Virus record (IMG/VR): IMGVR_UViG_3300010334_004672
Span: 1-39,676 of that record
Strand: one strand, 5' to 3'
From: a virus
DNA: 39,676 nt
The notes under the pieces were generated by a model that worked only from the letters and a program-made list of their open reading frames with translations, did not search any database and had not been told where the DNA came from. Positions 13,887-39,676 of the stretch are shown here, piece by piece. A program made the position numbers and the translations under genes. The first letter of the stretch is position 1; each line of letters begins with the position of its first letter.

Positions 13887-15131
13887 TTAGATTTGTTTCT
13901 CGTATCTTTCGCTCCATTGCTTATCTTTATCAAAAAGATACATAACAATTTTGTCTGGTTTATCTTGAGAATAAAAACTAGCTAGATATCTATTATTGAT
14001 TAATTTAACATACTCTGGGGAATCTGAGATATTAAAGTCTTTTCTAAAAAGTTCTTTGCCAGAATTATTATGCAGTGAGAATGTTAGGAAGTCGGGGTTT
14101 TGAGCATTAAACTTCTTAAAAAACTCAGTGTCCCACTCGCAATTTATATCATATTTATGTGAGATAAAACCATTTTCCCAATCACTAGGATTAGGGGGCT
14201 CATTAACCTGTAATGTATAATCTTGTATTCTGCATTTTTTGAAGTCAAATCCTCCAAAAACTTCATAATCATGTAGGGTTCTCTTATTTCCTAATCCATA
14301 AATACCCATATCTATGCCATGATCTTCTTGTCCAAATAATTGACGAGTTTTTTTACGAGCATAAATATCTCTTTCTCCACTAGTTTTTTTAGTTTGTGAT
14401 ACAGTTCCGTGATCTTCCCAGTGTTTTGGTCTATTATTTCTAGTATATTCATGCCAAATATATTGTCTATAAGGACTATAGAAATCATATCCGTGAGTAA
14501 AAGCACGAACACTTAATGTTGTTTCTTCAGTATATCCTCCAAAATAAATATCTGGATCATAAGGAACATCACTAATAAATTCGCTTTCAGCTAGTAAAAA
14601 GTGACCACTTATAGTTCTGCCTCTTATTACTTTTGATCTTTGTTTATAGTCTCCAATATAATATGGTCTACTCATTAAAAGACTATCATAACTAAACTCA
14701 TATTGACTCATTAAGCATGGGGCTAGATCGTATTTCTCTTGTTCTGGTTGAAATGGAGTTAAATATGTTGTCAAAATAGGTTTTTCGCATAAAGATTTTG
14801 CTTGATTAAAATCCTCCAACATCATTTGATCCCAGTTATAATCGAATCTATGGTGACTATCTAACTGTAATACAAGAGCCTCACCATCATAAAGCGTATT
14901 TGTAATCGCTCTTGCCCACCCAAGCCCCTGACTTTCATTATAATGATGTTTGCTTACCCTGAATCTAGAATCATTATCATATCTATTTATGTCTTCTGTC
15001 TCGTCATGTTGCCAGCATATGCCGAAAGTGAATTGTTCAGGATCCTTAGCTTTCTTTAACATATCATCAATGGTGATAGTCAATTGTGGATCTCTATACG
15101 AAGCTAACTCAACGAATATTTTATTGGACAT
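13887..15131 (-). CDS. GT60 family polypeptide GlcNAc-transferase-like protein
   Basis: The first 300 residues match the GT60 (GlcNAc) family. IFVELASYRDPQL is at the N-terminus, FGICWQHD follows, then GLGWARA, the metal-binding LQLDSHHRF motif (near residues 88-96), KPILTTY, SGHFLLAESEFISDVPYDP and FTHGYDFYSP. Known members transfer GlcNAc from UDP-GlcNAc to protein acceptors: hydroxyproline of Skp1 and Thr of mucins in Dictyostelium and Trypanosoma cruzi. The last 110 residues are an extra domain I do not recognise. It is the first gene of the minus-strand operon, and the divergent region upstream carries its control signals. Its best candidate substrates in this window are the Thr/Pro linkers of the tail proteins (inference). 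Confidence 0.85.
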   Translation of the reverse strand: MSNKIFVELASYRDPQLTITIDDMLKKAKDPEQFTFGICWQHDETEDINRYDNDSRFRVSKHHYNESQGLGWARAITNTLYDGEALVLQLDSHHRFDYNWDQMMLEDFNQAKSLCEKPILTTYLTPFQPEQEKYDLAPCLMSQYEFSYDSLLMSRPYYIGDYKQRSKVIRGRTISGHFLLAESEFISDVPYDPDIYFGGYTEETTLSVRAFTHGYDFYSPYRQYIWHEYTRNNRPKHWEDHGTVSQTKKTSGERDIYARKKTRQLFGQEDHGIDMGIYGLGNKRTLHDYEVFGGFDFKKCRIQDYTLQVNEPPNPSDWENGFISHKYDINCEWDTEFFKKFNAQNPDFLTFSLHNNSGKELFRKDFNISDSPEYVKLINNRYLASFYSQDKPDKIVMYLFDKDKQWSERYEKQI

Positions 15132-15193
15132 TGTGTGTATATAACCCTAGAAGGTATAAGATAATCTGCACCGGCTGCATAATATTAACTAGG

Positions 15194-15234
15194 TTACTTC
15201 AGGCTTGCAATGAGGTAAATTTTTATTTTTTTTC
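15194..15234 (+). terminator. Rho-independent terminator-like hairpin in divergent region
   Basis: TTACTTCA (15194-15201) pairs with TGAGGTAA (15211-15218) through 8 bp including one G-U, with loop GGCTTGCAA. It is followed by a T-rich tract to 15234. It stands before the +-strand genes and after a possible promoter (TTGTGT at 15131, TATAAG at 15155), so it could attenuate a leader, make a short RNA of about 65 bases, or stop antisense transcripts entering from glf. Confidence 0.5.
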
Positions 15235-15262
15235 TTGACTTTGTGATCGCTAGAGATATCAT
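15235..15262 (+). promoter_or_regulatory. sigma70-like promoter, possibly leaderless transcript
   Basis: TTGACT, a 16-base spacer, and TATCAT (15257-15262). Each hexamer is one base off consensus. A start about seven bases downstream would be at 15269, only 3 bases before the ATG at 15272, so the first gene may be translated from a leaderless mRNA or from an internal ATG at 15296. Confidence 0.45.
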
Positions 15263-15271
15263 AAGTTAGAC

Positions 15272-15484
15272 ATGACACAAAACACTCAAAATAATATGAA
15301 AGACGACTCAGGAAACCGAAAAGATTTTCGCAGAGAGAATCTAAATAAAAAGAAATTCTTGGATAAAAAGCAACAAGAAGAAGAAAGAGTTGCTGAATCA
15401 AAAAGAAAACAAGAATTTAGACAAAAAAAACAAGAAATTGACGAAGAAGAGTGGGAAAATTGGGAGAGATTTTATAATAGATAA
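15272..15484 (+). CDS. Small charged coiled-coil protein
   Basis: A 70-residue protein made almost entirely of Lys, Arg, Glu, Gln and Asn, predicted as one long helix (about residues 20-68). No known domain. It is the first gene after the divergent control region and ends 2 bases before the next. Such small basic/acidic helical proteins in early phage operons often bind host proteins or nucleic acids; nothing specific can be said here. An internal Met at residue 9 is an alternative start. Confidence 0.5.
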   Translation: MTQNTQNNMKDDSGNRKDFRRENLNKKKFLDKKQQEEERVAESKRKQEFRQKKQEIDEEEWENWERFYNR

Positions 15485-15486
15485 TT

Positions 15487-15741
15487 ATGCCAAACTATAT
15501 TGAAGAATTAGATAATGGTGAATCATTTATATTAGACAATAGTAAGTTAGTAGTAACTTGCGATCATAAGTCTAATGGTAATAGATTATGTATAGATTTA
15601 AAAACAGGATCATCCAGATGGCTATCAGGGAATACTATAATAGATAAAGTTCAACTTTTTACTTTAGACAAAGATAATAACCTTATAGCCATAAAAGAAA
15701 CAATTAAAGATGATCTTTCTAAGAATTCAAATATTCCTTAA
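15487..15741 (+). CDS. Small hypothetical protein, beta-rich
   Basis: An 84-residue protein with alternating hydrophobic residues that suggest a small beta barrel or sandwich (YIEELDNGESFILDN and LVVTCDHKSNGN). The family is unknown, with no Cys pairs or membrane segment. It starts 2 bases after the previous stop and overlaps the next gene by 32 bases. It may be an adaptor or an inhibitor of a host enzyme, but that is only speculation from its place in the early operon. Confidence 0.5.
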   Translation: MPNYIEELDNGESFILDNSKLVVTCDHKSNGNRLCIDLKTGSSRWLSGNTIIDKVQLFTLDKDNNLIAIKETIKDDLSKNSNIP

Positions 15742-15982
15742 ATCTTTGTTTTTCCACGTATGGGCTGGGTTTCCAAAAAGCACCCAATCTGAAATTTTAC
15801 AAAGATTCTCTATTTGCCAACAGTGTGAGGAATTCAATTCGATCAAAAAAGAATGTTCTATTTGCGGATGTAATATAAACACAAAAAAAAGATTCCTAAA
15901 CAAATTAGCATGGGCCGATCAAGAATGTCCAATAGGGAAATGGGGCAAAATAGGAGCAAATAATGATAACCAAAACAAATAA
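15710..15982 (+). CDS. Small zinc-ribbon phage protein
   Basis: A 90-residue protein with a four-Cys pattern CQQC ... CSICGC and a C-terminal CPIGKWGKI. This layout (paired Cys, then a Cys-Pro-x-Gly-Lys-Trp ending) is seen in a small family of phage proteins of unknown function that probably bind zinc. The N-terminal 25 residues are hydrophobic and aromatic. It overlaps the previous gene by 32 bases and the macro-domain gene by 20. Its job is not known; it may be structural. Confidence 0.6.
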   Translation: MIFLRIQIFLKSLFFHVWAGFPKSTQSEILQRFSICQQCEEFNSIKKECSICGCNINTKKRFLNKLAWADQECPIGKWGKIGANNDNQNK

Positions 15983-16514
15983 AAATAGCTATATTCTAAC
16001 CAATAATGACTTATTCGAATCTATTGAGAAGAGAATATCTGCAGGTCACATGGGATCAACAATTTTTGTCCCACACGTATGCAATAATATTGATTTGTTT
16101 GGTGCAGGTTTTGCATCACAGACTGCCGATCACTATCCAGACGTAAAGACTAATTATCATTTATTGGGAAAAACCTTTCTTAAAAATAATCTTGGTCATT
16201 CTCAGATCTTAAAAGTTAAAGAAGATTCAAAATATAGACATAAACTATATTTTGTTAATATGATTTCTCAGAATGGCATCAGAAACAATTCTAATAATCG
16301 TCCATTAAACTACGCTGCATTAGTTAAGAGCATGATTACGCTATCTTCTTTTATACAGAATAACACTGGCTTCGCTAACAAATCAGAAAATATTGAAATT
16401 CATGCTCCTAAATTTGGTAGTGGACTAGCTGGTGGAAACTGGAATTTTATCAGCGATTTAATAGATGATATCTGGGGAAGATATACTGTCTTTATCTATA
16501 ATTACAAGAAGTAA
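15963..16514 (+). CDS. Macro-domain protein (ADP-ribose binding)
   Basis: A 183-residue single macro domain. The core shows FVPHVCNNIDLFGAGFASQ (35-53), where the Asn and Gly-rich loop bind ADP-ribose, a middle strand with LYFVNMISQNGI, and HAPKFGSGLAGGNWNFI near the C-terminus, as in Poa1p-like phosphatases of ADP-ribose-1''-phosphate. It would hydrolyse or sequester ADP-ribose derivatives. In phages this could counter host defences that use NAD or ADP-ribosylation (inference), or recycle nucleotides. It lies in an operon of small early proteins. The start overlaps the previous gene by 20 bases. Confidence 0.75.
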   Translation: MITKTNKNSYILTNNDLFESIEKRISAGHMGSTIFVPHVCNNIDLFGAGFASQTADHYPDVKTNYHLLGKTFLKNNLGHSQILKVKEDSKYRHKLYFVNMISQNGIRNNSNNRPLNYAALVKSMITLSSFIQNNTGFANKSENIEIHAPKFGSGLAGGNWNFISDLIDDIWGRYTVFIYNYKK

Positions 16515-16553
16515 TTCAAAAAAACTAAATATCTAAAAACAAACTAAAAGATA

Positions 16554-17513
16554 ATGAATACTCTAGTTAAATCAGCAATAGATAAAGAATTACAAAACTT
16601 TAAGACGTTTGAGGATAATGAATTAAACTCACTAGACAACGAATGCGTCTTTCTGTTAAAAGAGTCTGGTGGTATTAGGGTAATAACCAAACCAGGATTA
16701 TCCCAAGGAACACTACAAAGACTACAGTTGATAATGCCATATATCGGTCCATCTATGGATAAATATGTTCCAATAGATAACGGAATTCTTTTATGCTTAA
16801 ATGATTTATTATCTGTATCTTATAACAAAAAATTCCCAGTCCTATGTCTATGCAAAACTAAAGATGCTAATGGAGTATTAATTCCAAATATTGATTTTTT
16901 TAGTAGAATATTATTTCATAATCTTAATTTAGCAAAAAAAGATATTGAATTTCAAAAGAAAAATGATAGTTCAATTTTTATAGGAGCTTCGACTGGAAGT
17001 CTAGAAAATAATACAAGAGTAAAGTATAGCATATCATGCATTGATAATATTAAACATAAAGGATATATCTGTCCATTATTACAGCATACTCATTCCGAAT
17101 GGATAGAGCGATATCCTCTAATTGAGTCTACTCTACACGATCCAATAACTGTTAATAGTCAACTAGAAAATAAAATTCTAGTAAATATAGACGGCAATAC
17201 TTTATGCTGGAGTAGGCTGTATTGGCAAATGATGTCAAATTCTATACCTGTATACATAAATCCATCAGAAAATCATTTCCAATTGTTTGACCACATACCA
17301 GCAGATAACTGCTATATGAAAAGTTCACTAGATGATTGTTTTTCTATTCATGAATATATCTTGGATCCAAAAAATCTTGATCATGTATCTGAGATAGTAA
17401 ATAATGGGAAAAATTATTGTGAGTCTATATTTTCTGACTTTTTGATAAATCCAGAAGAGTTTTTACGCTCTATAATTGATAAAATCATTTCGGGTTTATT
17501 TATAAAATCCTAA
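16554..17513 (+). CDS. GT90-like glycosyltransferase
   Basis: The 319-residue protein resembles GT90 (CAP10/POGLUT-type) transferases. The visible markers are GASTGSLENNTR near residues 142-153, a motif with KILVNIDGNTLCWSRLYWQMMSNSIPVYI (about 207-235; Arg and Asn contact the donor in the family), and a C-terminal helix region. GT90 enzymes add xylose or glucose to polysaccharides or to Ser of EGF repeats. There is no signal peptide or membrane segment, so it acts in the cytoplasm. No good ribosome site precedes it; A-rich sequence lies before the ATG. The acceptor is not known. Confidence 0.65.
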   Translation: MNTLVKSAIDKELQNFKTFEDNELNSLDNECVFLLKESGGIRVITKPGLSQGTLQRLQLIMPYIGPSMDKYVPIDNGILLCLNDLLSVSYNKKFPVLCLCKTKDANGVLIPNIDFFSRILFHNLNLAKKDIEFQKKNDSSIFIGASTGSLENNTRVKYSISCIDNIKHKGYICPLLQHTHSEWIERYPLIESTLHDPITVNSQLENKILVNIDGNTLCWSRLYWQMMSNSIPVYINPSENHFQLFDHIPADNCYMKSSLDDCFSIHEYILDPKNLDHVSEIVNNGKNYCESIFSDFLINPEEFLRSIIDKIISGLFIKS

Positions 17514-17549
17514 TTATAGTAGTTCTTTTCAGTAATTTATTGTCCCGCC

Positions 17550-17578
17550 TTGACTTCCTCATTCATTCATTGTAAAAT
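17550..17578 (+). promoter_or_regulatory. sigma70-like promoter before FkbM gene
   Basis: TTGACT, 17-base spacer, TAAAAT (17573-17578), an excellent match to a housekeeping promoter. The start would be near 17585, and GAGG at 17585-17588 is the ribosome site for the GTG at 17595, so the leader is very short. Confidence 0.6.
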
Positions 17579-17594
17579 ACTACCGAGGTAACCA

Positions 17595-18434
17595 GTGATA
17601 GATTCGATCAAAATAAATAACCAGAATATCTTTTTTATAGATAGTGAGGATCCAGTTATTTCCTATCTAAAATCTGGACATCTTTTTGGATACAATAACT
17701 GGTTGCTTCTAAACGAATTTATATTAGAGAATGACGATGAGTCATATGTTGTTGATTGTGGCGCTCACATAGGAACATTCTCTTTTGTTCCATCTATGTT
17801 CTATAATCAAAAAATGATTCTAATAGATGGAGCGCCAGATAATGTCTCATGCTTACAGAAAACTTTCGAAAATAAACAGAATGTAGAAATACACAATAAG
17901 ATCCTGTTAGATAGTAATAAAAAATGTAATTTTAGTTCCCAGTACGGACCATTTGGTTCTGCGTTACAAGATGATACTGGATCAGACGAATCTACTACCT
18001 TAGACTCTTTAGTTGGAGACAGAAAAGTTTCCGCCATAAAATATGATATTGAAGGAAATGAGCCAGAAGCACTAATTGGTTCAATAAAAACACTAGAAGC
18101 AAATAAGCCCCCATTACTTATCGAAGTAAATGGGCACTGCTTAAGACTTCATAAAAAATTACCAAAAGATCTATTCGATGTACTTGACAACTTAAACTAT
18201 CTTTACTTTATCAAGAATAATAATAGTTTGATTAGTATAGATAAAAATGAGATTTTCCCATTCTGTGTATTTGATGTAGTTTGTATTCATAAAGACAACG
18301 AAAAATTTTACACACACTTATTCGATATGGCTTCTCCAATGAATATAGAAAATCTTATTCATATAGCAAAACAGAATTATATAGCCAGTAACGAAGATTG
18401 TAAAAGGTATTTTGACACCCTAAATTTGGAGTAA
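17595..18434 (+). CDS. FkbM family methyltransferase
   Basis: The 279-residue protein has the class I SAM-binding motif VVDCGAHIGTFS (residues 53-64), then LIDGAPDNVSCL (post-motif acidic residue near 78), and FkbM-type KYDIEGNEPEALIGS (near 152-166). FkbM members methylate hydroxyls of sugars and small molecules, and they are common in phage and surface glycan clusters. It could cap a glycan made by the transferases around it. The GTG start follows GAGG by 6 bases. A sigma70-like promoter lies directly upstream, so this is probably the first gene of a transcript running to GMP reductase and beyond. Confidence 0.8.
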   Translation: MIDSIKINNQNIFFIDSEDPVISYLKSGHLFGYNNWLLLNEFILENDDESYVVDCGAHIGTFSFVPSMFYNQKMILIDGAPDNVSCLQKTFENKQNVEIHNKILLDSNKKCNFSSQYGPFGSALQDDTGSDESTTLDSLVGDRKVSAIKYDIEGNEPEALIGSIKTLEANKPPLLIEVNGHCLRLHKKLPKDLFDVLDNLNYLYFIKNNNSLISIDKNEIFPFCVFDVVCIHKDNEKFYTHLFDMASPMNIENLIHIAKQNYIASNEDCKRYFDTLNLE

Positions 18435-18436
18435 TT

Positions 18437-18583
18437 ATGGAAATCATTTTACTATTTTTTTTAATGCTTTCAATAGGTTTGGGAATAATGCATGGATTAA
18501 GATCTGTTAAACAAGCCAAAAGTAATCCATTATTTGCAGTTAAACCATCTAATAGCTTATTTACTTTCTTATTCTTAGACTAA
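18437..18583 (+). CDS. Small membrane protein (48 residues)
   Basis: A short reading frame of 48 codons fills the gap between the FkbM and GT25-methyltransferase genes. It begins 2 bases after the FkbM stop and ends 5 before the next start. The product is MEIILLFFLMLSIGLGIMHG at its N-terminus, one membrane helix, then a polar middle (residues 22-40) and a hydrophobic end. It could tether glycosyltransferases to the membrane, or be a small regulator. The tight fit is the main evidence that it is real. Confidence 0.5.
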   Translation: MEIILLFFLMLSIGLGIMHGLRSVKQAKSNPLFAVKPSNSLFTFLFLD

Positions 18584-18588
18584 ATTTT

Positions 18589-19752: not shown

Positions 19753-19761
19753 TAAATTACT

Positions 19762-20292: not shown

Positions 20293-20294
20293 TA

Positions 20295-20498: not shown

Positions 20499-20540
20499 TT
20501 CACATATAACCATACGGTAGTATACAAAGGATTTAATTTT

Positions 20541-21389: not shown

Positions 21390-21397
21390 GATACACT

Positions 21398-22525
21398 ATG
21401 CAAAAAATAATTAATGAAATTAAATTGGATTTTGATGATGTATTAATTAGACCTAAACGATCAACATTATCCAGCAGATCTGAAGTTTGTCTAGTAAGAG
21501 ACTTCCATTTCAAAAACTCACCCAGAAAATTTTCGTCCATACCCATTATAGTAGCAAATATGGATACTACTGGTACATTTAGTATGGCAAATGTTGTTTG
21601 TGAAAATCAAGCAATGGTAGCTCTTCATAAACATTATAAACCAGATGAATTAATACAATATTATTGTAATACTACTAATGATCATAAAGAATTGACATTC
21701 TATTCGACAGGAACATCATCTTCAGATATTGAAAAACTTACATACGTCTTCAATGCTATAAAAAATAGAGGATGTTCACTACCAAATATTTGTGTTGATG
21801 TTGCTAATGGATATAGTGAAAAATTTGTCAAAACTGTAGCACATATAAGAAAATTATATGAAGAAATAGTTATAATGGCTGGTAATGTAGTTACTCCAGA
21901 AATGGTAGAAGAACTTATTCTTCATGGCAGGGTTGATATTGTAAAGGTCGGTATAGGTCCAGGGTCTGTTTGTACTACAAGATTAAAAACCGGCGTAGGA
22001 TACGCACAGGTATCGGCCTGCTTGGAATGTTCTGATGCTGCTCATGGACTTGGTGGACACATTTGCGGTGACGGTGGTTGTAAACACGTTGGAGATATAT
22101 GCAAGGTATTTGGTAGTAACGCTGATTTTGCAATGTGCGGAAATTTCTTTGCAGGATGTGAAGAATGTGAAGGAGAATGGGAATATGAATTTAAATGTAA
22201 AAGAGCTGGGTTAACATCTGAATTTTGGCAATCATTCAACCCAGGCTATGAAACAGAAAAAAGAAAAACTAAACTTAAATTCTATGGCATGAGTAGTAAA
22301 GAAGCTATGGAAAAACATAACAATGGAGTTGCAAACTATAGAACTAGTGAAGGAAGATGTGTTAGTGTTCTATATAAAGGTCCAGTTCAAGATATTCTAT
22401 TAGATATTTTTGGAGGACTAAGAAGTGCTTGTACATATATTGGAGCTTCAAAAATAAAAGACTTTGGTAAGAAAACAACTTTTATAATGGTAAACAATAC
22501 TCACACAAAAACATATGACAAATGA
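21398..22525 (+). CDS. guaC: GMP reductase
   Basis: A 375-residue (beta/alpha)8 enzyme matching GMP reductase more than IMP dehydrogenase. It has LDFDDVLIRPKRS at the N-terminus, VANMDTTGTF, CVDVANGYS, AGNVVTPEMVEELI, then the catalytic loop GIGPGSVCTTR with Cys192, AHGLGGHICGDGGC, and the flap/C-terminal FYGMSSKEAMEKH, GVANYRTSEGR and GGLRSACTYIGA. No CBS domains interrupt the barrel. It is about 25 residues longer than E. coli GuaC because of an insertion near 250-285. It reduces GMP to IMP with NADPH, releasing ammonia. For an AT-rich phage that would shift guanine nucleotides to adenine precursors (inference). Confidence 0.92.
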   Translation: MQKIINEIKLDFDDVLIRPKRSTLSSRSEVCLVRDFHFKNSPRKFSSIPIIVANMDTTGTFSMANVVCENQAMVALHKHYKPDELIQYYCNTTNDHKELTFYSTGTSSSDIEKLTYVFNAIKNRGCSLPNICVDVANGYSEKFVKTVAHIRKLYEEIVIMAGNVVTPEMVEELILHGRVDIVKVGIGPGSVCTTRLKTGVGYAQVSACLECSDAAHGLGGHICGDGGCKHVGDICKVFGSNADFAMCGNFFAGCEECEGEWEYEFKCKRAGLTSEFWQSFNPGYETEKRKTKLKFYGMSSKEAMEKHNNGVANYRTSEGRCVSVLYKGPVQDILLDIFGGLRSACTYIGASKIKDFGKKTTFIMVNNTHTKTYDK

Positions 22526-27858: not shown

Positions 27859-28299
27859 ATGTATGATTCAAACACTATAGTATGGGAAAAATGGATAGAT
27901 CCATTTAGCATAGATGACCAGATTGAAAATACTATAGAAAACGCAGAGCCAGAATTCTTGGAAGATGACCATATCGAAGAAGAGAAAAGTAATACTACAC
28001 AAGAAAGTCCTCATCATACATTTAAGCACTTTAAAGCAGTTGCTACTCCAATGGGAATAATACCAATAAATGAAGAAGCAACTAGTGGTAAAGTATTTAA
28101 TTTTTGGGTGGGTCATGCTAATTTTAATATAACTAAGCCTATAGCAGAAGTAATAGAAAATACTGATGGTGTTGAGACATTAGATATTTTTACTCGTTAT
28201 AGATTTAGAATATCTGTAGGTAAAGCATTTGATGATTCCACTGTAATGAGGAGTATCAACAGTAAAGTCTATACAGAGCTAAACAATGCAAAATATTAA
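27859..28299 (+). CDS. Hypothetical protein in head block
   Basis: A 146-residue protein from ATG 27859, set by AAAGGAA. An in-frame ATG seven codons upstream is less likely. The N-terminal half is acidic and the C-terminal half is beta-rich with FNFWVGHANFNITKP and TRYRFRISVGKAF. The family is unknown. It overlaps the ClpP-like gene by 14 bases, so they are coupled, and it could be a protease partner or small structural protein. Confidence 0.55.
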   Translation: MYDSNTIVWEKWIDPFSIDDQIENTIENAEPEFLEDDHIEEEKSNTTQESPHHTFKHFKAVATPMGIIPINEEATSGKVFNFWVGHANFNITKPIAEVIENTDGVETLDIFTRYRFRISVGKAFDDSTVMRSINSKVYTELNNAKY

Positions 28300-28954
28300 C
28301 AGTATAGATTCTGAATTACAAACACTGCATTCTTATAATGTGGACGTTAAAAATAGAGAAGTCTATCTACACTCATATCTATCTGATTCTGATGTTGAGC
28401 CGGGAGTTGACTATCGTGTTGCTGTTAATTTTGAAAAAAATCTTCGATATTTAAATCTTCTATCGAATGATCCTATTTTAGTACATATGCATTTACCAGG
28501 AGGAGACTGGGAAGATTGTATGGCTATTTATGATACTATACAAAAGTCTAAATCAAAAATAGTTATGCTCGCATATGGAAAAGTTCAGTCTGCTAGTAGC
28601 GTAATATTGCAGGCTCCTAATCTTAGAATAATAATGCCAAATGCAAATATACTAATTCATTATGGTTCTATTAGTTTAGATAGCGAACATAGTAAAGCAG
28701 CTGCTAGCAGTTTAAGATGGAATGAAAAAGAGTGCGATAAGATGATTGATATATTTGTGGATCGGTGTATGCAAAGTACATTGGCTCAAGAAAAAAATTG
28801 GAAAAGAATGATGGCAAAAAAACATATTCAATCACAATTAGCTAGTCAATGTGACTGGATATTGACTGCTCAAGAAGCTTTGCATTATGGTTTTGTTGAT
28901 GCTATTATTGGAGATAAAAGATATCCAAATATTGATTCTCTCAAAAAAAAATAA
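28286..28954 (+). CDS. ClpP-like (S14) serine protease
   Basis: A 222-residue ClpP/crotonase-fold protease. LVHMHLPGGDWEDCMAIYD (65-83) matches the family's Gly-Gly substrate-binding turn. Ser102 is in GKVQSASSVIL, His125 in ANILIHYG, and Asp190 in CDWILTAQEALHYGFVDAI. This gives the usual Ser-His-Asp spacing. Host ClpP needs ClpX; phage relatives often act as prohead maturation proteases without an ATPase. Its neighbourhood of structural genes supports that role (inference). It overlaps the previous gene by 14 bases. Confidence 0.85.
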   Translation: MQNINSIDSELQTLHSYNVDVKNREVYLHSYLSDSDVEPGVDYRVAVNFEKNLRYLNLLSNDPILVHMHLPGGDWEDCMAIYDTIQKSKSKIVMLAYGKVQSASSVILQAPNLRIIMPNANILIHYGSISLDSEHSKAAASSLRWNEKECDKMIDIFVDRCMQSTLAQEKNWKRMMAKKHIQSQLASQCDWILTAQEALHYGFVDAIIGDKRYPNIDSLKKK

Positions 28955-30226: not shown

Positions 30227-30255
30227 TAATTTATTAATTTAATGTTAACGACATG

Positions 30256-30290: not shown

Positions 30291-30313
30291 TGTCTTATTA
30301 TGGAGATATTAAA

Positions 30314-30640: not shown

Positions 30641-30648
30641 GACTATTT

Positions 30649-32736
30649 ATGGTACCAAATGGAATTTCTATTCCTATAAAACTAGAAAATCTAAAAATAT
30701 GTAATGACTATTCTATTAATATTAATGGAATATATAACTATACAGATATTCTAATATCTCCATCCACCATCTCTTTCAAAGCTTCATCGGATTCTCAAAC
30801 AATAACTCCAATAGTTTTTCTTTGTCCAGGAAATTATTGTTTTGACCAAAATGATCAAATTATTCTAACTATCACTGCTAATAATATTACAGATAAATTA
30901 GTTTCGTCTGAAAATCTTATCTTAAGATGTAATAATTATCAACCTTGTTTGGCTGGAACTGTTCCAATTCCAAGTTTAACTCCAACAGCTACTCCAACAG
31001 CTACTCCAACAGCTACTCCAACAGCTACTCCAACAGCTACTCCAACAGCTACTCCAACAGCTACTCCAACAGCTACTCCAACAGCTACTCCAACAGTTGC
31101 TCTTACGAATACCCCAACGGTTACGCCTACTCCAACAATAACTCCAACACCGGGCGGTCCAACAAATACTCCAACGCCAACTCAGACAAGAACATCTACT
31201 CCGACCCCTACTCCGACACCAACAAGAACTGCCACTCCAACTCCGACACCAACAAGAACTGCCACTCCAACTCCGACACCAACAAGAACCGCTACTCCAA
31301 CTCCGACATCTACTCCTACACGAACACCAACGCCAACGCCAACAAGTACTCCTACTCCAACACCAACAATTACTCCTCTTCCTCCTGCGGGTACTCCGAC
31401 GCCTACTCCAACACCAACAATAACTCCGACTCCAGGAGGCCCAACAAATACTCCAACTCCAACTCCAACAATATCTCCTACTAGAACTCCTACTCCAACA
31501 CCAACAATCACTCCAACACCAGGCGCTCCAACAAGTACTCCAACACCAACGCCAACAATTACTCCTCGCCCTCCTGCTAATACCCCAACTCCAACTCCAA
31601 CATCCACACCAACAGGTTTTAAGAGTATAACATTTGCTTCATATGGATGGTATTCCGCTTATCGAATAAATCCTCCTTTAAATAATTCAATAACATATGG
31701 AATATTAAATGCGGGCACTGCAGGAGAACCAAGTTTTTATGGAACATACGACCAAGATGGAAATACTTTTGAATATATTGAAGATATAATAAACTTTACA
31801 ACCTCCCCAGTTTCTAGTAGTTTAGGTAAAACCAGGATGGCTATTGGTGGAAATATATTAGGTTTTCCTTTCACTCGAAATGGTTCAAAAGCTTATTATT
31901 TTAATCAATCTATTCAGATATCAAGAGCATTAAATGTTTCTAGTACTCTATCTCTAAAAGATCAGTTTAATACTACTTCTCCTTTATTTATTTTTGACTC
32001 TTTAACTTCTTTTAGAATAATCAGAACATCTGCTCCTCCAACCTCAGAAGCAAATCAATGGGCCTATGTGTCAGATATTAATAATTCTTCTGATATCGAA
32101 GATAAATATCCTACATTCTCAGATAATAGTATAAGTCATCCAAGACTAGGATCTGTAGGATATGAATACTGGATTAAAAAAATACCTGTTACGCAAGGAG
32201 AATTTGTAAACTATTTAAATATTGTTGATCCTCTCGGATCTAATTTCCTAAATATGAAATATCATAGAACAGGTCAAGAGATGAGCTCTACAAATGTACT
32301 ATATTCAGGTAACTGGTATTATGGAAATTATATAGAATGCAATGTTAGTAGAGCAGCAGGATCAAGATATTATATAGCAAGAAATAACAGTATAAATAAA
32401 CCGGTTTGTGGATTAAACTGGACACATGCAGCAAGATACTGTAATTGGATAACTAATGGAGCAAATGTTTCTGCTAGTACTGAATCTGGAGCTTATACAA
32501 TAAAAGACGAATTTGCCTCATTCAAAATGACTAGAACAAACTCATTGGTATGCGCTATACCAACTTTTAATGAATGGTATAAGGCGGCTTATTACAATCC
32601 TATCTATAATAGATATTTTAAATTTGCAACGCAAAGCGATAGACTGCCTCAGCCTTGTGGAGTTGATCTGAATACTGAAGATGGAATAGCATCAATAACA
32701 ACAAAACATCTATATGTTCATTTTCCAGGAGTTTAA
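30649..32736 (+). CDS. Tail/adhesin protein: Thr-Pro linker and rearranged SUMF1/FGE domain
   Basis: The 695-residue protein has three parts. Residues 1-107 are a small Cys-containing beta domain. Residues about 108-321 are a Thr/Pro linker with several repeat types. Residues 322-695 are a SUMF1/FGE-type (C-type lectin-like) region. There the blocks appear in altered order: [17 protein letters not shown] and FRIIRTS (normally C-terminal) come first. [35 protein letters not shown] and [15 protein letters not shown] (normally N-terminal) come after them. The usual ending is missing at the C-terminus. It is most likely a receptor-binding or carbohydrate-binding tail protein. Formylglycine-generating activity is not expected. 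AGGACT is upstream. Confidence 0.75.
30985..31092 (+). repeat. 12-base tandem repeat, nine copies
   Basis: Nine identical copies of ACAGCTACTCCA encode (Thr-Ala-Thr-Pro)9. Because the unit is a multiple of 3, copy number can change by slippage without breaking the frame. Beyond it, 30-base and other Thr-Pro units continue to about 31611. Confidence 0.95.
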
Positions 32737-32745
32737 TAAAGAATA

Positions 32746-34611
32746 ATGGAAGAAGAATTAGAATTACATAATATCATACATAATATGTATAGAGAAAATG
32801 AAAATATACATTCCATAGGTTATGGACTAAAGACTATTGGGGGAGTAGAAACATCTGACTATGGATTAATATTTCATGTCTTTGAAAAAAAAACAATAGC
32901 AGAATTAAGTCCTAATCAAATAATACCTCCAAGAGTCGAAATTAATCAACAAAATTTTATAACAGATGTTGTAGAGGAACGAGAACTCCCAATATTCATA
33001 GGTTGTTACGACTGGAATCCAGGACAAAAAGTTATAGATGGATGTCCTTCAGGTTATACTTGTTATAATAGCGGATATTTAGCGTCAGCAGAACAAAATT
33101 TACACAGAGTCGAATCTAGACCTATAATGGGCGGTATCTCCATAACAGAATATAGTAAAAGCCCTGGATCGCTCGGGACTATGGGGCTTTTGGTAAGGGA
33201 TAATGAAGACAATTCTATTGTAGCTTTAACTAATACTCATGTCGTTACTAGTTGCAGACTAGACCCTCTTCAAAATACAAGATTTTATACAGAAAATCAT
33301 CTTGATTCTCCTGTAGTTCAACCAGCATATTACGAAACATGGGATGGTACTCCTGGATCTTTGCCTTCCATTCCTCTTTCAAAAAGAATAGGTCAAGTTA
33401 AAAGATGTAGTTTCTATAATTATGGGGTATTGTATTTTGCTGGAGGAGCTACCCTATTTATAGATGCTGCTTTAGTTCACATAGATGCTGGAGTTATAGA
33501 TTCATCATCGGCTAATATTAAAGGCTTCGAAAGTTTTGGTCCTCTCTCTTTTGCTACAAAATCAGAGATAGATGGATTACTTACTAATAATATTTCTTTA
33601 TATATTAGCGGAAGAACAACAGGAGCTAAAGGAGGTAGCTCTTGTAGAATTTCTGTCAAAGAAAATATGTTTGTACAGGCTTTATTTCAACAAAAATGCG
33701 GTATAGATACTTTGTCTTCTTTTTCTATCAACTTTTATGATGTCTTAAGAATTAGATACGATTCGGGAGATCAGGGGGTGGTTGTTCCTGGCGATTCTGG
33801 ATCTGTTGTTGTTGGTGATTTTTCTGGAATAAAAAAAATAGTTGGTTTAATTTTTGCCGCAGGAGGTACTAATTATACAGATGGAATTTTTTGTAGAATA
33901 GACAGAGTTGCATCTGAAATGAATATATCTGCTTGGGATGGAACTAATATAATTAATTCTGATACTAGTAAATGGCAGTATCTTGATAGAGATTTAATAA
34001 TACCAGATCCTGAAGTTTTTAATTTTAACGAAGACTATCTTCCTCGTTATACTATTATAGATAATGGGAAAAAATATTGGAGAATAGGTTCTATTTCTTC
34101 TTCGAGTACTATTCCTCCCACACAGACTCCAACACCAACCCCAACAGCAACAGCAGTACCTCCAACAGCTACTCCAACCCCAACGCCAACAGCAACAGCA
34201 GTACCTCCAACAGCTACTCCAACACCAACCCCAACAATAACTCCAACACCAATCCCAACATCCGGACCTTGGGGAACTGCTAATACCAATTGGAATAATG
34301 TTGGATTCAATGGAAGTGGAGTGTTTTCTTCTCCATTTACCTCGACTACAATAACGACACTTCCAACAACAAGAGTTGTCAATTCAGCAGGATATATACA
34401 TTATAGTTGGGATTCTATAGCTACTAGTGATTGTCAATATGATAATTTTGAAATTTTAGTTTCAGGATTAGCAGGAACCAATTCAAGTCAATGGTCATGT
34501 GAAGGAGCAGTAAACGAAAGTAAGGTCGTGGCTTCTGGAAATACTTTATATTTAAATCCAGACTCAACAACAACATTTAGTAATCTCAAAATTTGGTGGT
34601 CTCAAACCTAA
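32746..34611 (+). CDS. Nal1-like chymotrypsin-fold protease with Thr-Pro linker
   Basis: The 621-residue protein begins with IHSIGYGLKTIGG, a DVVEER region and a PIMGGIS segment, the layout of the Nal1-like serine protease group. The triad is His165 in LTNTHVVTS, Asp240 in FIDAALVHI and Ser351 in VPGDSGSVVVG. A family-like SGRTTGAKGG precedes the Ser, and VGLIFAAGG follows it. About residues 458-507 are a Thr/Pro linker with two near-identical 45-base units. The end (508-621) is a small beta domain with WGTANTNWNNVG. So a protease is attached to a likely adhesin. It could cleave host surface proteins, or itself, during adsorption or assembly. The ATG follows the previous stop by 10 bases. Confidence 0.8.
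   Translation: MEEELELHNIIHNMYRENENIHSIGYGLKTIGGVETSDYGLIFHVFEKKTIAELSPNQIIPPRVEINQQNFITDVVEERELPIFIGCYDWNPGQKVIDGCPSGYTCYNSGYLASAEQNLHRVESRPIMGGISITEYSKSPGSLGTMGLLVRDNEDNSIVALTNTHVVTSCRLDPLQNTRFYTENHLDSPVVQPAYYETWDGTPGSLPSIPLSKRIGQVKRCSFYNYGVLYFAGGATLFIDAALVHIDAGVIDSSSANIKGFESFGPLSFATKSEIDGLLTNNISLYISGRTTGAKGGSSCRISVKENMFVQALFQQKCGIDTLSSFSINFYDVLRIRYDSGDQGVVVPGDSGSVVVGDFSGIKKIVGLIFAAGGTNYTDGIFCRIDRVASEMNISAWDGTNIINSDTSKWQYLDRDLIIPDPEVFNFNEDYLPRYTIIDNGKKYWRIGSISSSSTIPPTQTPTPTPTATAVPPTATPTPTPTATAVPPTATPTPTPTITPTPIPTSGPWGTANTNWNNVGFNGSGVFSSPFTSTTITTLPTTRVVNSAGYIHYSWDSIATSDCQYDNFEILVSGLAGTNSSQWSCEGAVNESKVVASGNTLYLNPDSTTTFSNLKIWWSQT
34126..34215 (+). repeat. 45-base tandem repeat, two copies (Thr-Pro linker)
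   Basis: Two nearly identical 45-base units, 34126-34170 and 34171-34215, each encoding TPTPTPTATAVPPTA, followed by a partial third unit. They lie in the Thr/Pro linker of the Nal1-like protein. Confidence 0.85.
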
Positions 34612-34693
34612 TAACTAATCAAATTAATAAAAATGGGTCTTTTTTTTGGTGTATGATTATAAGACACAAACTCTCTAATTTCAGGAGAAATTT

Positions 34694-34915
34694 ATGGCAA
34701 GACCATTTACAGATATTGCACGAATTAATGATAATTTACCAATTAAAAATGGTACATTAATTGTTTCGTCTACAAAAACAGGTTCATATAGTACATACGA
34801 TAGATATGTGCTTAATACTCCGGTTATCGAAGATATTGCTTCAAAATATGGTAATAGATTCTATAATGGCATTTTTGTTACATTAACTGGCGACCAAACA
34901 ATAGTAGGTGGATAA
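34694..34915 (+). CDS. Small structural-like protein
   Basis: A 73-residue protein, preceded by AGGAGAAA and overlapping the next gene by one base (TAATG). It begins MARPFTDIARINDNLPIKNG and ends GIFVTLTGDQTIVGG, a pattern of short beta strands. The family is unknown. Its place between two large tail genes suggests a baseplate or tail fibre accessory protein. No more can be said from the sequence. Confidence 0.55.
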   Translation: MARPFTDIARINDNLPIKNGTLIVSSTKTGSYSTYDRYVLNTPVIEDIASKYGNRFYNGIFVTLTGDQTIVGG

Positions 34916-35874
34916 TGAGTATTAAAAGAATAAACGAATTTCCAGAAGGTAGTGGATCATTAAGTGGTGATGATATATTTTTATTCATGGATAGTCCATC
35001 AGCTAGCGGAGTTACTAAAAAAATATCCCTATCTGAACTAAGTTCTTTTGGGGCAGTCGTTGATAGATTGGTCAAGGACGACAACTCTGTTATTCTTGGA
35101 ACAAATGGTAGTTTAACATTACCTAGCGGTAGCATACTAAGTGAAACAAATAATACACTATCCATAATGCCCCCCACAGCATTGGCTGGGCAGAGTTTGG
35201 TGATTCGTGGAACCAGCCCCACTGGAATTACTTCCGATCATCCTGACGGGTTTGCTGCAGGGGATACTATAACAATAACTGTAACTCCTAATAATGGTAA
35301 TGTGGTAACCGGAACAGTAGATTATACATTCACCGGTGATTTTGGAATTGGAGAATTAGGTAATGCAACAACTGGCACGTTGACGTTTACCTCACAAGCT
35401 GACCAGACAGTAACTTGGACAGTGCCTGCAGAAAGTAGCATGACTACATTTACATTTACACTTAGCAATGCGTCAGGGTTTGGGCTCGGTGGTTTAACAT
35501 CGCTTACATTGACAGGAACTGGCAGTAGTGAAGATAGTCATGTTCACCTAATATCAGGAGATCCTTCAACAGTTGATATTTATTTGGGTGATGATGATCA
35601 ATATGTTAAAATAGAAAAAAATGGTGGAGATGTTATTGTTGGCACCAATTTAAACACTCATCTCTGGACTTTTGGTACAGACGGAGAACTAACATTGCCA
35701 GCTAGTGGTAGTATCACATTCCCAGATAATACAACTCAAACTTCTGCTGGTATACCTAGTAATACTGGATTAGTTACAAATTCAACCAGTATTAGTAATA
35801 TAGTTAGTATATCTCAAGCTAATTATGACGCTTTAGGGACAAAAGATCCTAGTACATTATATGTAATTCAATAA
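34915..35874 (+). CDS. Tail fibre-like protein
   Basis: The 319-residue protein starts with SIKRINEFPEGSGSLSGDDIFLFMD, an N-terminal block that recurs in phage tail fibre-like proteins, followed by TKKISLSEL. A beta-rich middle (about 80-210) has Gly/Thr-rich strands. The next part contains a repeated TDGELTLPASGSITFPDNTTQT pattern, typical of intramolecular beta-roll fibre shafts. The end is ISQANYDALGTKDPSTLYVI, also seen at the ends of fibre proteins. It is probably a fibre or an adaptor for the large protein downstream. The start overlaps the preceding stop. Confidence 0.7.
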   Translation: MSIKRINEFPEGSGSLSGDDIFLFMDSPSASGVTKKISLSELSSFGAVVDRLVKDDNSVILGTNGSLTLPSGSILSETNNTLSIMPPTALAGQSLVIRGTSPTGITSDHPDGFAAGDTITITVTPNNGNVVTGTVDYTFTGDFGIGELGNATTGTLTFTSQADQTVTWTVPAESSMTTFTFTLSNASGFGLGGLTSLTLTGTGSSEDSHVHLISGDPSTVDIYLGDDDQYVKIEKNGGDVIVGTNLNTHLWTFGTDGELTLPASGSITFPDNTTQTSAGIPSNTGLVTNSTSISNIVSISQANYDALGTKDPSTLYVIQ

Positions 35875-35887
35875 TTAAGGATCTCTC

Positions 35888-38800
35888 ATGGCAGATTTTA
35901 CAATAGAGTTCTGGACAAAAATCTCTGGTAGTCAACAGACAAATTTTTTCAACATAGGATCAGATACCTCTTTCTCATATTCTGCTCCTATATTTACTCT
36001 AAAGCTTGCTGGTAGCACCAAATCTTCATTCAGCTATAGTATGCCTCTTAATACTTGGACCCATGTTGCTATTGTTAGATATGGCACAACAGTCAGAGTA
36101 TATATTGGAGGAACATCAAGGAAAACATATCTTAATACTTCAGATAATATTCTTGATGGGTCTGGTATTTTAACAATTGGAAATGCTAATATCCCAGACT
36201 TACAAAAAAATGTTAGAGGATATATTTCTAATTTCCATGTAGTTAATGGACAGGCACTATATACAGGAAATGGTTATACTCCATCAACAGCTATCCCAAC
36301 ACCAATTTCTGGACAGTCTGTATTGTTAATGGATTTCTATGATAATAATACAAGATTTTTAGAAGATATTAGTACTAATCCAATTACTAAAAGCATATCC
36401 AGTGCTGGATCTTCATTTAATTCTGATAATCCTGCAGGATCAGGCAATCCTGGAAGTTCTGATTTTGGGTCTTCTGGGTCTTTTAATAGAATCACAGTAT
36501 CTAACGATGGAAACTTTGCTTTTGGTGCGGCAGGAATAAATCCAACACCAACACCAACACCTACATTAACACCTAGTCCTCCTACAGCTACTCCTACGCC
36601 AACACCAAGTTCAACACCAACAGTAACGCCACTTCCTCCCGCCAATACTCCAACGCCAACTCCAACTGTTGGTCCAACAAGTACACCAACAACAACTCCA
36701 ACAAATACTCCTAGTCCAACACCAACAGTCACTCCACTACCCCCAGCTAATACCCCCACGCCTACGCCGACACCAACTGAGGGTCCGACAAGTACGCCAA
36801 CCCCTACCCTAACAGCAACGCCTAGTCCAACCCCAACTATCACGCCACTTCCTCCTGCAAATACTCCAACGCCAACGCCAACACCAACCGAGGGTCCGAC
36901 AAGTACTCCAACTCCTACTTTAACGGCAACACCAAGTCCAACGCCAACTATTACTCCGCTACCTCCAGCTAATACGCCAACTCCAAGTCCAACACCAAGC
37001 CCAACACCAACAATAACTCCGCTACCCCCAGCCAATACTCCTACTCCAACACCAACCGTTGGCCCAACAAGCACTCCAACCCCCACACCCTCTGCTTCAT
37101 ATTCATATACAATAAAATATAGAGAAGCAGATGGTTCAAATAATAAGTATGGTTGGGCTGATAATGAAACTGCATGTACTTTACAATCAAATGGGTGGGG
37201 AGAAATAACCATATACTCTCCAAGTCCAACATTTACTAATGGTATGAGTTTTTATTTGGATTCTTCAGGATCACAAATTGTTAATGTAGTTGCAAATCAA
37301 TATTACTATTATTCAAATGAAAATAAATCATTCATGTGGGTTGCCGGAAATACTATTTCAAATATAACGGCTTGTAATAGTTGTGACTCAATTACTCTAG
37401 TTGGTCTTAATGCTAACACAACATCAAATTCTGCAATTAGCACCCACGGAGGAGGATGGACAGCATCAGCATATTCTACAGAAACTTATAGTAATCCAGT
37501 TTCAGTAACATTTAAAACATCAGCAAGCGATAATTATTTAATGGGTGGATTTTCTTATAGTCCAACCTCAAATGCAGAAACCTATATCAATACAACCTAT
37601 GGTCTCTATATACAACCAGGATTTTTAGAGATATATGAATATGGTGGTCAGGTTAATGTTCCAGGATCTATTACTAGATCAGTAAATGACATATGGAAGG
37701 TTGATTATGATGGAACAAATGTTAAATATTACCAAAATAATACTTTAATTTATACCTCATCAAATACAGTAAATCAACCATTATATGTATTTTTCCCACT
37801 TTTAACAGGCGGTGAAGGAGTTACTGATATTTGTGTTAAAGAAATAATTCCAACGCCTACTCCAACACCTACTCCAACACCTACTCCAACGCCGACACCA
37901 GGTAATCCAAATGATCTAATATTTGATTCAAATTACTTGGGAGATTTTATCTTATTAAGTAATTATGATTGTACAGCTTCGTTTACCTCTGATAATAATG
38001 AAAACGAAACGTCTATTTTAACAAACTACCGAATAAGTGATGGACAAAAAGTAGTTTTCAGCATGGTGTCTAAATATGGAAATCGAGATGATTATACTGG
38101 GGTTGGAATATCAAATCATGATTTTGACGTAAATGACTATATAGGAGTTGATACTAATTCTATAGGATTTTATGATAATGGAGATGTTTGGTATGATGAT
38201 AATAATATAATAAATTTAGATTTAGAATTTAAAGAAGATAATAATATTATAGACGTTGCTGTGGATAGGCTTAATAATCTGATGTGGATTAGGGTAGACG
38301 GAGGATATTGGAATGGTGATGAAACACAAGACCCAGAGACAGCATCGGGAGGAATAGATATTTCTGGTATCTCTGGAGATGTTTATCCTGGTGCTAGCCC
38401 ATATGCTCATGATAATGTCTTCGGTCAAATTTCTATTAATAATGTAATATCTAATCCTCCATCAGGATTTACTGTATTAAAAAGTTCACATACTCCTACT
38501 ATCAATAGAAGATTTTCTTGTAGGTTTGATCCCAATAAGCTTGGAGAATTTGTAACTTTAAGCAATAATAATAATACTGTAAATTCAACTATAGAAATTG
38601 ATAATCAAGATTATGGTGGAAATGCTGTTGTAAATTATGATATTCAAATTGGTAGAAAAGCATTATTTAGCATAGTAGTAGATCGGGCTGCTCTGTATTC
38701 GGAAATAGGTATTGTTAATAATGTTTTCCATCCGAGATTTACAGGAGAAGACCCATATGCACCATATCTTTCAAATACTATCAACGGAGGAGCACTAGTA

Positions 38801-39676
38801 AATAGTGGTGGTCAACTTCAAGAGATGAAAGTCATAATACCTTCTTCATCTACAGATATTGATACCGGACTACCCTATCTAAATGATGGAGACATTGTTG
38901 ATGTTGCTGTTGACAGAGAAAATAATTTAATCTGGTTCAGAGTAAATGATTCAGACTGGAATAATGATCCAACCCAAAATCCAATAACAGCTTCTGGTGG
39001 ATTTGATATTTCTGGCATATCAGGAACAATCTATCCTGCAGTATTTGCTTATTGGGATAGTGTAATGAGCATTAATCTTACTCCATATTCTTTACCAGGA
39101 TTTGATACAATATATGGGGTTAATAGCATAATCCCTGCTGATAGTCAAATATATTTAAGTGATTCTAATATAACTTCTATTAAATTGGGAAATGATGACG
39201 TTTCTAAAATATTTTTAGGAGATGTTTTAGTATTCGGAGGTGGCTCTGGCATCTGTCTTAATTCAACTTCTAATGTTAAAATGACAGGATGGGTTTCTGG
39301 TGATAGAATTCTTGCCCCTATTGGATATGCTCCTTGGGGACGTGAAACTTATACCTACGGAAATGAAACCGTTCGTTATGAAACTGGTTTATGGTTGTAT
39401 ACAAATACGACAAACGGAGAACTTGCTAGAGCATATAGTTACGCAAACTGGCCTTGGCTAGTAGATTGGCCGACCCCGTATGCTGCTGAAAAAATCTGTG
39501 CTTCTCCAACCCCAACTCCAACCCCAACTCCGACACCAACTCCAACGGAGACACCTACTCCAACGGAGACACCTACTCCAACGGAGACACCTACTCCAAC
39601 GGAGACACCTACTCCAACGGAGACACCTACTCCAACGGAGACACCTACTCCAACGGAGACACCTACTCCAACCCCA
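35888..39676 (+). CDS. Giant modular adhesin (LamG, SPRY-like domains, Thr-Pro linkers), partial
   Basis: Open for 1263 codons from ATG 35888 (AAGGA upstream) to the window end, with no stop; the 3' end lies outside. The domains, by residue, are as follows. About 1-150 is a LamG/concanavalin-like domain ([20 protein letters not shown]). About 218-403 is the first Thr/Pro linker. About 404-650 holds further beta domains, including a lectin-like fold with [13 protein letters not shown]. About 655-672 is a short Thr/Pro linker. About 675-860 and 880-1060 are two SPRY-like modules sharing DVAVDRxNNLxW and GGxDISGISG. Residues 1075-1207 contain a fibre-like [10 protein letters not shown] and an aromatic domain. 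From 1207 a Thr/Pro/Glu repeat runs to the edge. This is most likely a host-recognition tail protein with several lectin-like domains. Confidence 0.85.
36541..37095 (+). repeat. Thr-Pro linker with long near-identical units
   Basis: About 185 codons of Thr/Pro-rich repeats. The core is a roughly 36-residue unit ([20 protein letters not shown], then a [16 protein letters not shown] part) present in two near-identical copies and several variants. The same [15 protein letters not shown] element occurs in the upstream SUMF1-like protein near 31558-31605, so the genes share repeat blocks. Confidence 0.9.
39545..39670 (+). repeat. 18-base tandem repeat, seven copies at right edge
   Basis: Seven identical copies of ACGGAGACACCTACTCCA encode (Thr-Glu-Thr-Pro-Thr-Pro)7. 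The array reaches almost to the window end and may continue. Perfect identity points to recent expansion or ongoing homogenisation. Confidence 0.9.

Follow-up and report, generated by a model that had tools for sequence, protein, structure and literature searches.

Organization of the window

The window analysed here is itself a viral record (IMGVR_UViG_3300010334_004672, 39,676 b), a piece of a large phage to which no cultured phage is closely related. It contains a gene for an enzyme of glycosyltransferase family 60 (GT60), which heads a cassette of glycosylation genes, and three tail-side proteins with long Thr/Pro tracts (Table 1). In related phages the enzyme and the style of the linkers vary together, which suggests that such phages may coat their own stalks with sugars. 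The RuvB-like protein of the window (3962-4891) is <60% identical to its counterparts in all 81 isolated-phage records matched, and uncultured relatives of the phage reach 238 kb.

The GT60 enzyme

The GT60 gene is located on the minus strand, the plus-strand translation of 13887-15131 holding 24 stops; the family named in an earlier note on this DNA is thus retained (PF11397, Table 1), whereas the strand is corrected. Residues D91-S92-H93 are invariant in 31/31 aligned phage GT60 sequences and form what we take to be a DxH-type motif, in kind and presumably in role as in GT27. The AlphaFold model of the enzyme has a mean predicted local distance difference test score (pLDDT) of 94.2. When the model is compared with the PDB by VIA-align, ranks 1-29 are all polypeptide N-acetylgalactosamine (GalNAc) transferases, with Z 18.2-22.2 over 258-324 aligned residues, and the next entry scores 17.1, the specificity of this assignment lying solely in the Z gap. 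The first 21 rows given by Foldseek are likewise all polypeptide GalNAc-transferases. Because neither sequence nor profile searches of PDB chains matched the window GT60, this nearness is one of fold. The only Pfam family matched is PF11397, and the enzyme is not a GT27 member by sequence; its model has the GT27 catalytic-domain fold, a similarity that does not by itself prove function. The C-terminal part beyond residue ~360 is barely covered by the structural matches, and no ricin-type Pfam match is found at E 0.1.

Few isolated phages encode a GT60 homolog: 3/50,697 records have one (XacN1, CM1, and RAS14, each ~32% identical). A search of IMG/VR with the window GT60 gave 41 loci. Among bacterial contigs the sole relative (L397, 39% identical) is found on an unplaced contig of a metagenome-assembled genome (MAG), has an alternating Thr/Pro open reading frame (ORF) nearby, and is possibly a prophage.

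Linker type follows GT60 in the phage lineage

With the RuvB-like gene of the window as query, 80 relatives were retrieved, 38 of which are at least 25 kb long. PF11397 is present in 20/38 of these, and in 21/39 with the window included; DNA patterns were counted in the same 39 records (21 GT60-positive, 18 GT60-negative). ORFs were compared in 17 records, namely the window and 16 of the 38 that were examined nearly whole, selected by size with GT60 status known. This count leaves outside G206 (52 kb; first 20 kb examined) and the GT60-positive G211 and G224 (both >100 kb).

Alternating Thr/Pro tract ORFs, numbering between 1 and 13 per record, are present in 9/9 GT60-positive records but in 0/8 GT60-negative ones (Fisher p 4.1e-5), whereas poly-Thr (PTTTTT) tract ORFs show the reverse distribution, 0/9 versus 5/8. 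Three GT60-negative records (G193, G197, and G201) have neither tract class. Fisher values overstate independence here, since a 59-gene tree has only two changes of GT60 state; a single-gene tree has four, weakly supported. The raw TPT:TTTT ratio in 13 records ranges from 9.6 to 295 with GT60 and from 0.06 to 0.56 without it, while G+C content fails to separate the two groups (0.327-0.368 versus 0.332-0.388). At the level of DNA, the pattern TPTxTPTxTPT (TPTx) is found in 12/21 GT60-positive and 1/18 GT60-negative records (p 6.8e-4), and in records of at least 100 kb in 9/10 and 0/8. A strict (TP)5 pattern was too narrow for the lineage (2/38), where tracts were found with the less stringent TPTx pattern and by ORF analysis; strict P(T)6 was likewise too narrow and misses G192, whose ORFs carry poly-Thr tracts.

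The two linker styles occur in related proteins. With the tracts masked, 7/14 poly-Thr ORFs have homologs among the alternating-tract ORFs of GT60-positive phages, although three of these homologies are weak (E 4e-7 to 9e-11) and several poly-Thr ORFs also match ORFs without tracts. In one pair, from G202 (GT60-negative) and G225 (GT60-positive), a common C-terminal domain is preceded by a linker of PTTTTT type in the former and of TPTPTET type in the latter. Moreover, among 12 glycosylation genes of the window that were compared, only GT60 tracks the tract type (8/8 GT60-positive versus 0/8 GT60-negative records). In the large lineage records most tract ORFs are separated from the cassette by tens of kb, and the match is therefore not accounted for by close linkage.

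A second enzyme in poly-Thr phages

The five poly-Thr lineage records have in common a glycosyltransferase of ~292 aa (PF00535) with a DCH motif, which is found in 6/18 GT60-negative and 0/21 GT60-positive lineage records. In G195 and G196 its gene abuts a poly-Thr ORF. The model of this enzyme (pLDDT 91.4) is also nearest to polypeptide GalNAc-transferases, which occupy ranks 1-29 (Z 20.2-23.9, next entry 18.7). Across the 17 records the states agree throughout: GT60 with alternating tracts in 9/9, the 292-aa enzyme with poly-Thr tracts in 5/5, and neither with neither in 3/3, the last match (G193, G197, and G201) being weak because these records of 112-131 kb may be partial. A linker code, in which alternating T-P would correspond to GT60 and PTTTTT to the 292-aa enzyme, is a tentative extension of these observations that we regard as somewhat doubtful; the phages would then own a mucin-type O-glycosylation with a constant initiator and exchangeable extenders, and the stalks could be re-coated by cassette swap. 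G206 weighs against such a code, as it encodes the 292-aa enzyme but has no P(T)6 match and no tract in its first 20 kb.

The 292-aa enzyme was also considered as a general partner of poly-Thr tracts and rejected, only 3/80 loci having a poly-Thr ORF in the flanks fetched. Its gene is found at L589:13161-14036 (+) and in L627-L706, and relatives are encoded in 321 IMG/VR stretches.

The glycosylation cassette and its site

GT60 is followed on the minus strand by ORFs at 12690, 11972, 11302, 10569, and 9731, and the cassette ends with a UDP-galactopyranose mutase, the enzyme making UDP-galactofuranose (UDP-Galf) that the earlier note had assigned to 8640-9728 and that is recovered here (Table 1). 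At many of the 41 related loci, GT60 is followed by an ORF about as long as 12690..13871. To the right, plus-strand genes above the Pfam cut-off encode a GT25-like/methyltransferase fusion (18589), a CAP59/GT69-like protein (20541), and a GT4 enzyme (22522), while 17595 is an FkbM methyltransferase and 16554 has no glycosyltransferase match. The number of glycosyltransferases besides GT60, put earlier at about nine, is smaller by Pfam: five score above the cut-off (9731, 11302, 18589, 20541, and 22522) and two below (12690 and 11972).

The cassette occupies a definable site. In 13 lineage records homologs of the subtilisin-like and macro-domain-like genes border either the cassette or an empty site: the border genes span 2.2-2.3 kb in seven GT60-negative records, which form one clade on the 59-gene tree, and lie 8.4-20.9 kb apart with GT60 inside in six GT60-positive records. 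G207, G225, and G202 depart from this arrangement, their site being moved, missing, or split. A gene of ~550 aa is located directly upstream of GT60 in 8/8 lineage GT60-positive records (one cut by the piece end) and in 0/5 GT60-negative records compared; the one ortholog scanned (L553:17282-18928, +) matches HtrL_YibB, and no ORF of that kind adjoins GT60 in the window. Downstream of GT60, transferases and methyltransferases differ between records (ten ORFs scanned, four without a match), from which we infer a constant initiator with exchangeable extenders. A trypsin-like gene and the subtilisin-like gene (both by eye; 6564-8229, +) adjoin the cassette and have relatives in 16/16 and 15/16 lineage records, respectively.

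Table 1 Features of the window. Assignments marked "by eye" were made from the translation.
Feature	Position	Strand	Evidence
GT60-family glycosyltransferase of 414 aa; putative initiator of polypeptide O-glycosylation	13887..15131	-	PF11397 202.9 bits, cut-off 21, E 1.3e-59
GT4-like ORF adjoining GT60	12690..13871	-	Glycos_transf_1 E 7.4e-4, below cut-off
GT25-like ORF	11972..12682	-	PF01755 E 0.019, below cut-off
GT25-like ORF	11302..11982	-	PF01755 E 2.7e-5, 24.6 bits, cut-off 24
Cassette ORF, glycosyltransferase by eye only (DxD-like motif)	10569..11285	-	no glycosyltransferase family match
GT11-family glycosyltransferase	9731..10633	-	PF01531 E 3.3e-24
UDP-galactopyranose mutase, cassette end	8640..9728	+	GLF, PF03275 E 1e-74
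Subtilisin-like gene (by eye), left border of cassette site	7306..8229	+	13 lineage records have homologs bordering cassette or empty site
Macro-domain-like gene (by eye), right border of cassette site	15963..16514	+	same 13-record comparison; no Pfam match
Adhesin-like tail protein 1, Thr/Pro tract and short FGE-like domain	30649..32736	+	PF03781 E 4.3e-8
Alternating Thr/Pro tract, tail protein 1, residues 106-325	30964..31623	+	ORF analysis; tandem repeats in DNA
Tail-side protein 2; N-terminal region resembling a protease, then Thr/Pro linker and C-terminal region	32746..34611	+	phrog_20754 protease E 1.7e-10; no Pfam match
Thr/Pro tract, protein 2, residues 453-508	34102..34269	+	ORF analysis
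Tail protein with Phage_tail_C domain; no alternating tract by classifier	34915..35874	+	PF24243 E 7.6e-10
Tail protein 3, concanavalin A-like domain, several Thr/Pro tracts, open at record end	35888..39676	+	PF13385 E 5.7e-12
Thr/Pro tract, tail protein 3, residues 215-404	36530..37099	+	ORF analysis
Thr/Pro tract, tail protein 3, residues 651-675	37838..37912	+	ORF analysis
Thr/Pro tract, tail protein 3, residues 1203-1263, open at record end	39494..39676	+	ORF analysis; 7.8 copies of 18-mer

Tail proteins and their Thr/Pro tracts

The long Thr/Pro tracts of three tail proteins, already described in the earlier note, are found again with slightly adjusted limits (Table 1). Of the Thr residues of proteins 1, 2, and 3, the tracts contain 95/133, 21/62, and 104/188, respectively. 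Tail protein 1 shares 28-32% identity with domains found in the tract-bearing proteins of relatives, and tail protein 3 matches an ORF of G188, a lineage record, with 85% identity over 477 aa. The tracts are more than chance, because proteins 1 and 3 have FGE-like and concanavalin A-like domains, respectively, and relatives have homologs with similar tracts. Six tract ORFs of GT60-positive records were scanned and five matched concanavalin-like, FGE-like, RCC1, PA-IL, or DUF642 models; the tract proteins thus look like multi-lectin adhesins.

At the DNA level the tracts consist of tandem repeats (one array has 9.8 perfect copies of a 12-mer), and linker length may vary by slippage of these arrays. 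Near-perfect arrays of 12 bp (30979-31096) and 18 bp (39532-39672) encode tracts of the window. The short FGE-sulfatase-like domain, which has a C-type-lectin fold, recurs in adhesins (window 30649-32736; L549:4277-11593, with 4 stretches in one ORF).

GT60 and Thr/Pro tracts outside the lineage

The strict (TP)5 DNA pattern is found in 21/42 GT60 records. Two further sets were formed from 50 of 120 loci picked by a (TP)6 pattern (TP set) and 50 of 120 loci picked by a collagen-like pattern; PF11397 is present in 8/50 records of the former and 0/50 of the latter (Fisher p 0.0029). A third set consists of the 50 longest of 80 mutase-bearing records, in which GT60 occurs in 8, TP tracts in 8, and both in 6, so that TP tracts accompany 6/8 records with GT60 and 2/42 without it (Fisher p 4.6e-5). 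The tree of this set gives 3 independent contrasts only, 2.4 of which are concordant on average and almost none opposed.

In the stored flanks of the 41 GT60 loci, alternating tract ORFs are found at 15 and poly-Thr ORFs at 0. In 7/41 loci (L011, L021, L023, L029, L030, L031, and L032) a tract ORF ends 54-84 b before the start of the GT60 match; of these, L029 and L031 look like copies of each other. This adjacency is not universal, since GT60 comes after a helicase gene in L008, L012, and L026 and directly after a mutase gene in L014.

Two other rules were tried and gained no support. That a TP tract generally adjoins a glycosyltransferase was examined with 130 neighbours each of TP and collagen ORFs (one set being all 130 listed, the other 130 of 146): among the listed 25 of 41 and 25 of 42 families, Glycos_transf_2 has 3 versus 3 neighbours, PF11397 2 versus 0, and other GT2-type models 1-2 members on either side. 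GT60 of the Skp1 Gnt1 type acts on hydroxyproline and needs a partner prolyl hydroxylase, a 2-oxoglutarate (2OG)-Fe(II) oxygenase. Such a route is not favoured here, as a 2OG oxygenase is no regular feature of GT60 records: PF13640 is found in 5/50 of them and not in the window, although the records are fragments and the host might supply the enzyme. Near TP ORFs 2OG-Fe(II) oxygenases occur in 3/130 cases and near collagen ORFs in 2/130 (TP loci L043-L160).

Proposed mechanism and known systems

We consider it probable, on sequence comparison and predicted structure, that GT60 starts O-glycosylation of the phage's own Thr-Pro adhesin linkers and that its variable neighbours extend the sugar. 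In the infected cell, GT60 would initiate polypeptide O-glycosylation on threonines of the alternating Thr-Pro linkers, which appear to join lectin-like domains of the tail adhesins. The neighbouring variable glycosyltransferases and methyltransferases would then extend and cap the sugar, the whole cassette behaving as an island at a fixed site. Relatives without the cassette would have poly-Thr linkers, probably served by the other GalNAc-transferase-like enzyme, or no such linkers in the record. Sugar transfer as such, threonine as acceptor, UDP-N-acetylglucosamine (UDP-GlcNAc) as donor, on family precedent, and a benefit in the form of extended, protected, or variable stalks are all presumed parts of this scheme. 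As expected for virion glycosylation, the genome carries glycosyltransferase genes and the candidate acceptor co-varies with the enzyme, the latter in 2 independent contrasts.

The closest biochemical precedent is given by polypeptide alpha-GlcNAc transferases of family GT60, known from T. cruzi and Dictyostelium, which belong to the same profile family and begin mucin-type O-glycans by adding GlcNAc to Thr (PMC8724618, PMC3769586). The enzyme of the window differs in being a phage gene product that would act without a Golgi, with alternating Thr-Pro linkers of tail adhesins as its proposed acceptors. The further suggestion of a T. cruzi-like Galf-GlcNAc-Thr chemistry, and with it Galf as part of a linker code, is left unsupported: the mutase is present in 2/8 GT60-positive and 2/8 GT60-negative lineage records and does not track GT60. 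GT27, responsible for animal and Toxoplasma mucin-type O-glycosylation, offers the nearest solved fold and a similar DxH motif; the phage enzyme is unlike it in having no sequence or profile match in the PDB and a C-terminal part that is barely aligned.

Among cultured phages, the nearest experimental support comes from XacN1, which encodes a GT60 homolog (ORF334, 32% identical) and an alternating Thr/Pro tract (ORF350). Its virions are reported to contain "at least two glycoproteins" by proteomics, and the authors attribute them, as a suggestion, to the phage's own glycosyltransferases (PMC5852040). In the main-text sections consulted the glycosylated proteins are not named and ORF334 is not tied to Thr/Pro tracts (PMC5852040). 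In mycobacteriophages, phage glycosyltransferases are cited as modifying virion proteins at the C-termini of capsid and tail tube (PMC12619734), whereas the window phage is proposed to modify adhesin linkers, with a GT60 initiator and a linker dialect. A cellular parallel exists too. Gram-positive serine-rich-repeat adhesins are glycosylated by dedicated Gtf enzymes, and they share with the present proposal a dedicated glycosylation of low-complexity stalks and variable accessory glycosyltransferases; they differ in enzyme families, in their location on the bacterial surface, and in their Ser-rich repeats. Mycobacteriophage virion glycosylation was reportedly described by Freeman et al. in 2023.

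Full-text literature searches, judged by titles and the starts of abstracts and with subscription literature largely outside, gave no description of a pairing of GT60 with Thr-Pro linkers; a search for GT60 together with phage found nothing, and PF11397 turned up for a brown alga only. Within the searches made, the match between GT60 and tract type is not found in print.

Alternative explanations

The evidence has to be weighed against four other readings. In one, which we regard as unlikely, the cassette including GT60 alters the surface polysaccharide of the host, for example blocking superinfecting phages, and the Thr/Pro linkers are plain unmodified spacers. The cassette does hold GT25, GT11, GT4, and UDP-galactopyranose mutase genes, all typical of surface polysaccharide loci; TP-tract phages mostly lack a detected GT60 (42/50), and at the three helicase loci GT60 does not come after a tail gene. 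Yet only GT60, out of the 12 glycosylation genes compared, follows the linker dialect, its fold is nearest to protein O-glycosyltransferases, and glycoproteins are reported in XacN1 particles (PMC5852040). Shared ancestry or a shared host seems rather improbable as an explanation. It would have GT60 and linker style inherited or acquired together without mutual action, the linkers drifting by repeat slippage, and both the scarcity of GT60 state changes on the 59-gene tree (2) and the tandem nature of the tracts fit it. However, identity between the window GT60 and the GT60 of its lineage relatives is just 33-39%, as against 72-95% for the RuvB-like gene, while the linker style is unchanged; a similar coupling is seen in the mutase-bearing phages, and XacN1, RAS14, and the bacterial MAG contig have alternating tracts in the neighbourhood of their GT60 homologs.

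That tract type tracks the enzyme, and that the GT60 match stands directly behind a tract ORF in 7/41 loci, makes it very improbable that GT60 acts on another virion or host protein such as capsid or tail tube, with the linker co-variation being secondary, even though the glycosylated C-termini cited for mycobacteriophages provide a model for this (PMC12619734). Hypermodification of phage DNA by the glycosyltransferases can be practically discounted: DNA-acting phage glycosyltransferases are cited as well (PMC12619734), but the GT60 fold resembles protein glycosyltransferases, and no base-modification gene was recognised by eye or among the scanned ORFs of the window, which is a fragment scanned in part.

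Glycosylation of the phage's own linkers also has several observations weighing against it. The whole case is a correlation, and likeness of fold to polypeptide GalNAc-transferases leaves the acceptor unproven. The tract classes were defined only after the tracts had been seen, in records chosen with GT60 status known, and the two state changes on the 59-gene tree provide only 2 independent contrasts (sign test p 0.5). Within the lineage, the GT60-negative G217 has one TPTx match, the GT60-positive G215 has two P(T)6 matches, and nine of the 21 GT60-positive records lack a TPTx match, among them G224 at 126 kb, the other eight being 26-93 kb long. In the window itself, GT60 is on the opposite strand and 15 kb from the tail genes. 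Outside the lineage, 21/42 GT60 records have no strict (TP)5 match and 26/41 GT60 loci no tract in their stored flanks, many of both being fragments; GT60 aside, glycosyltransferases are not clearly enriched near TP ORFs relative to collagen ORFs. As 42/50 TP records are without a detected GT60, the enzyme is not a general partner of Thr/Pro tracts. The co-occurrence that the earlier note expected across phages is therefore seen in the lineage (9/9 versus 0/8) and only in part beyond it, and its idea that the phage decorates its own adhesin linkers is partly supported, by the lineage, the predicted fold, and the XacN1 glycoproteins. The stiffness, protease resistance, and antigenic variability that the note ascribed to such stalks would be conjectural benefits.

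If linker glycosylation by GT60 is real, mucin-type protein O-glycosylation would not be confined to cells, and phages would build glycosylated stalks of receptor-binding proteins inside bacteria, with an acceptor preference readable from sequence. It would account for low-complexity Thr/Pro tracts in some phage adhesins and suggest a function, open to testing, for orphan phage glycosyltransferases; defined mucin-like peptides could be produced with simple bacterial enzymes. Encounters of phages with antibodies and proteases would be affected as well, as is reported for mycobacteriophages.

Other genes of the window

None of the RNA families searched for in the window reached its gathering score. 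A RIIB-like protein with an acidic C-terminal tail is encoded at 42-938 (+; phrog_609, E 9.8e-71), and a ClpP-like protease at 28286-28954 (+; PF00574, E 1.2e-20). In addition, an IMP dehydrogenase/GMP reductase-like gene, recognised by eye at 21398-22525 (+), has relatives in 15/16 lineage records.

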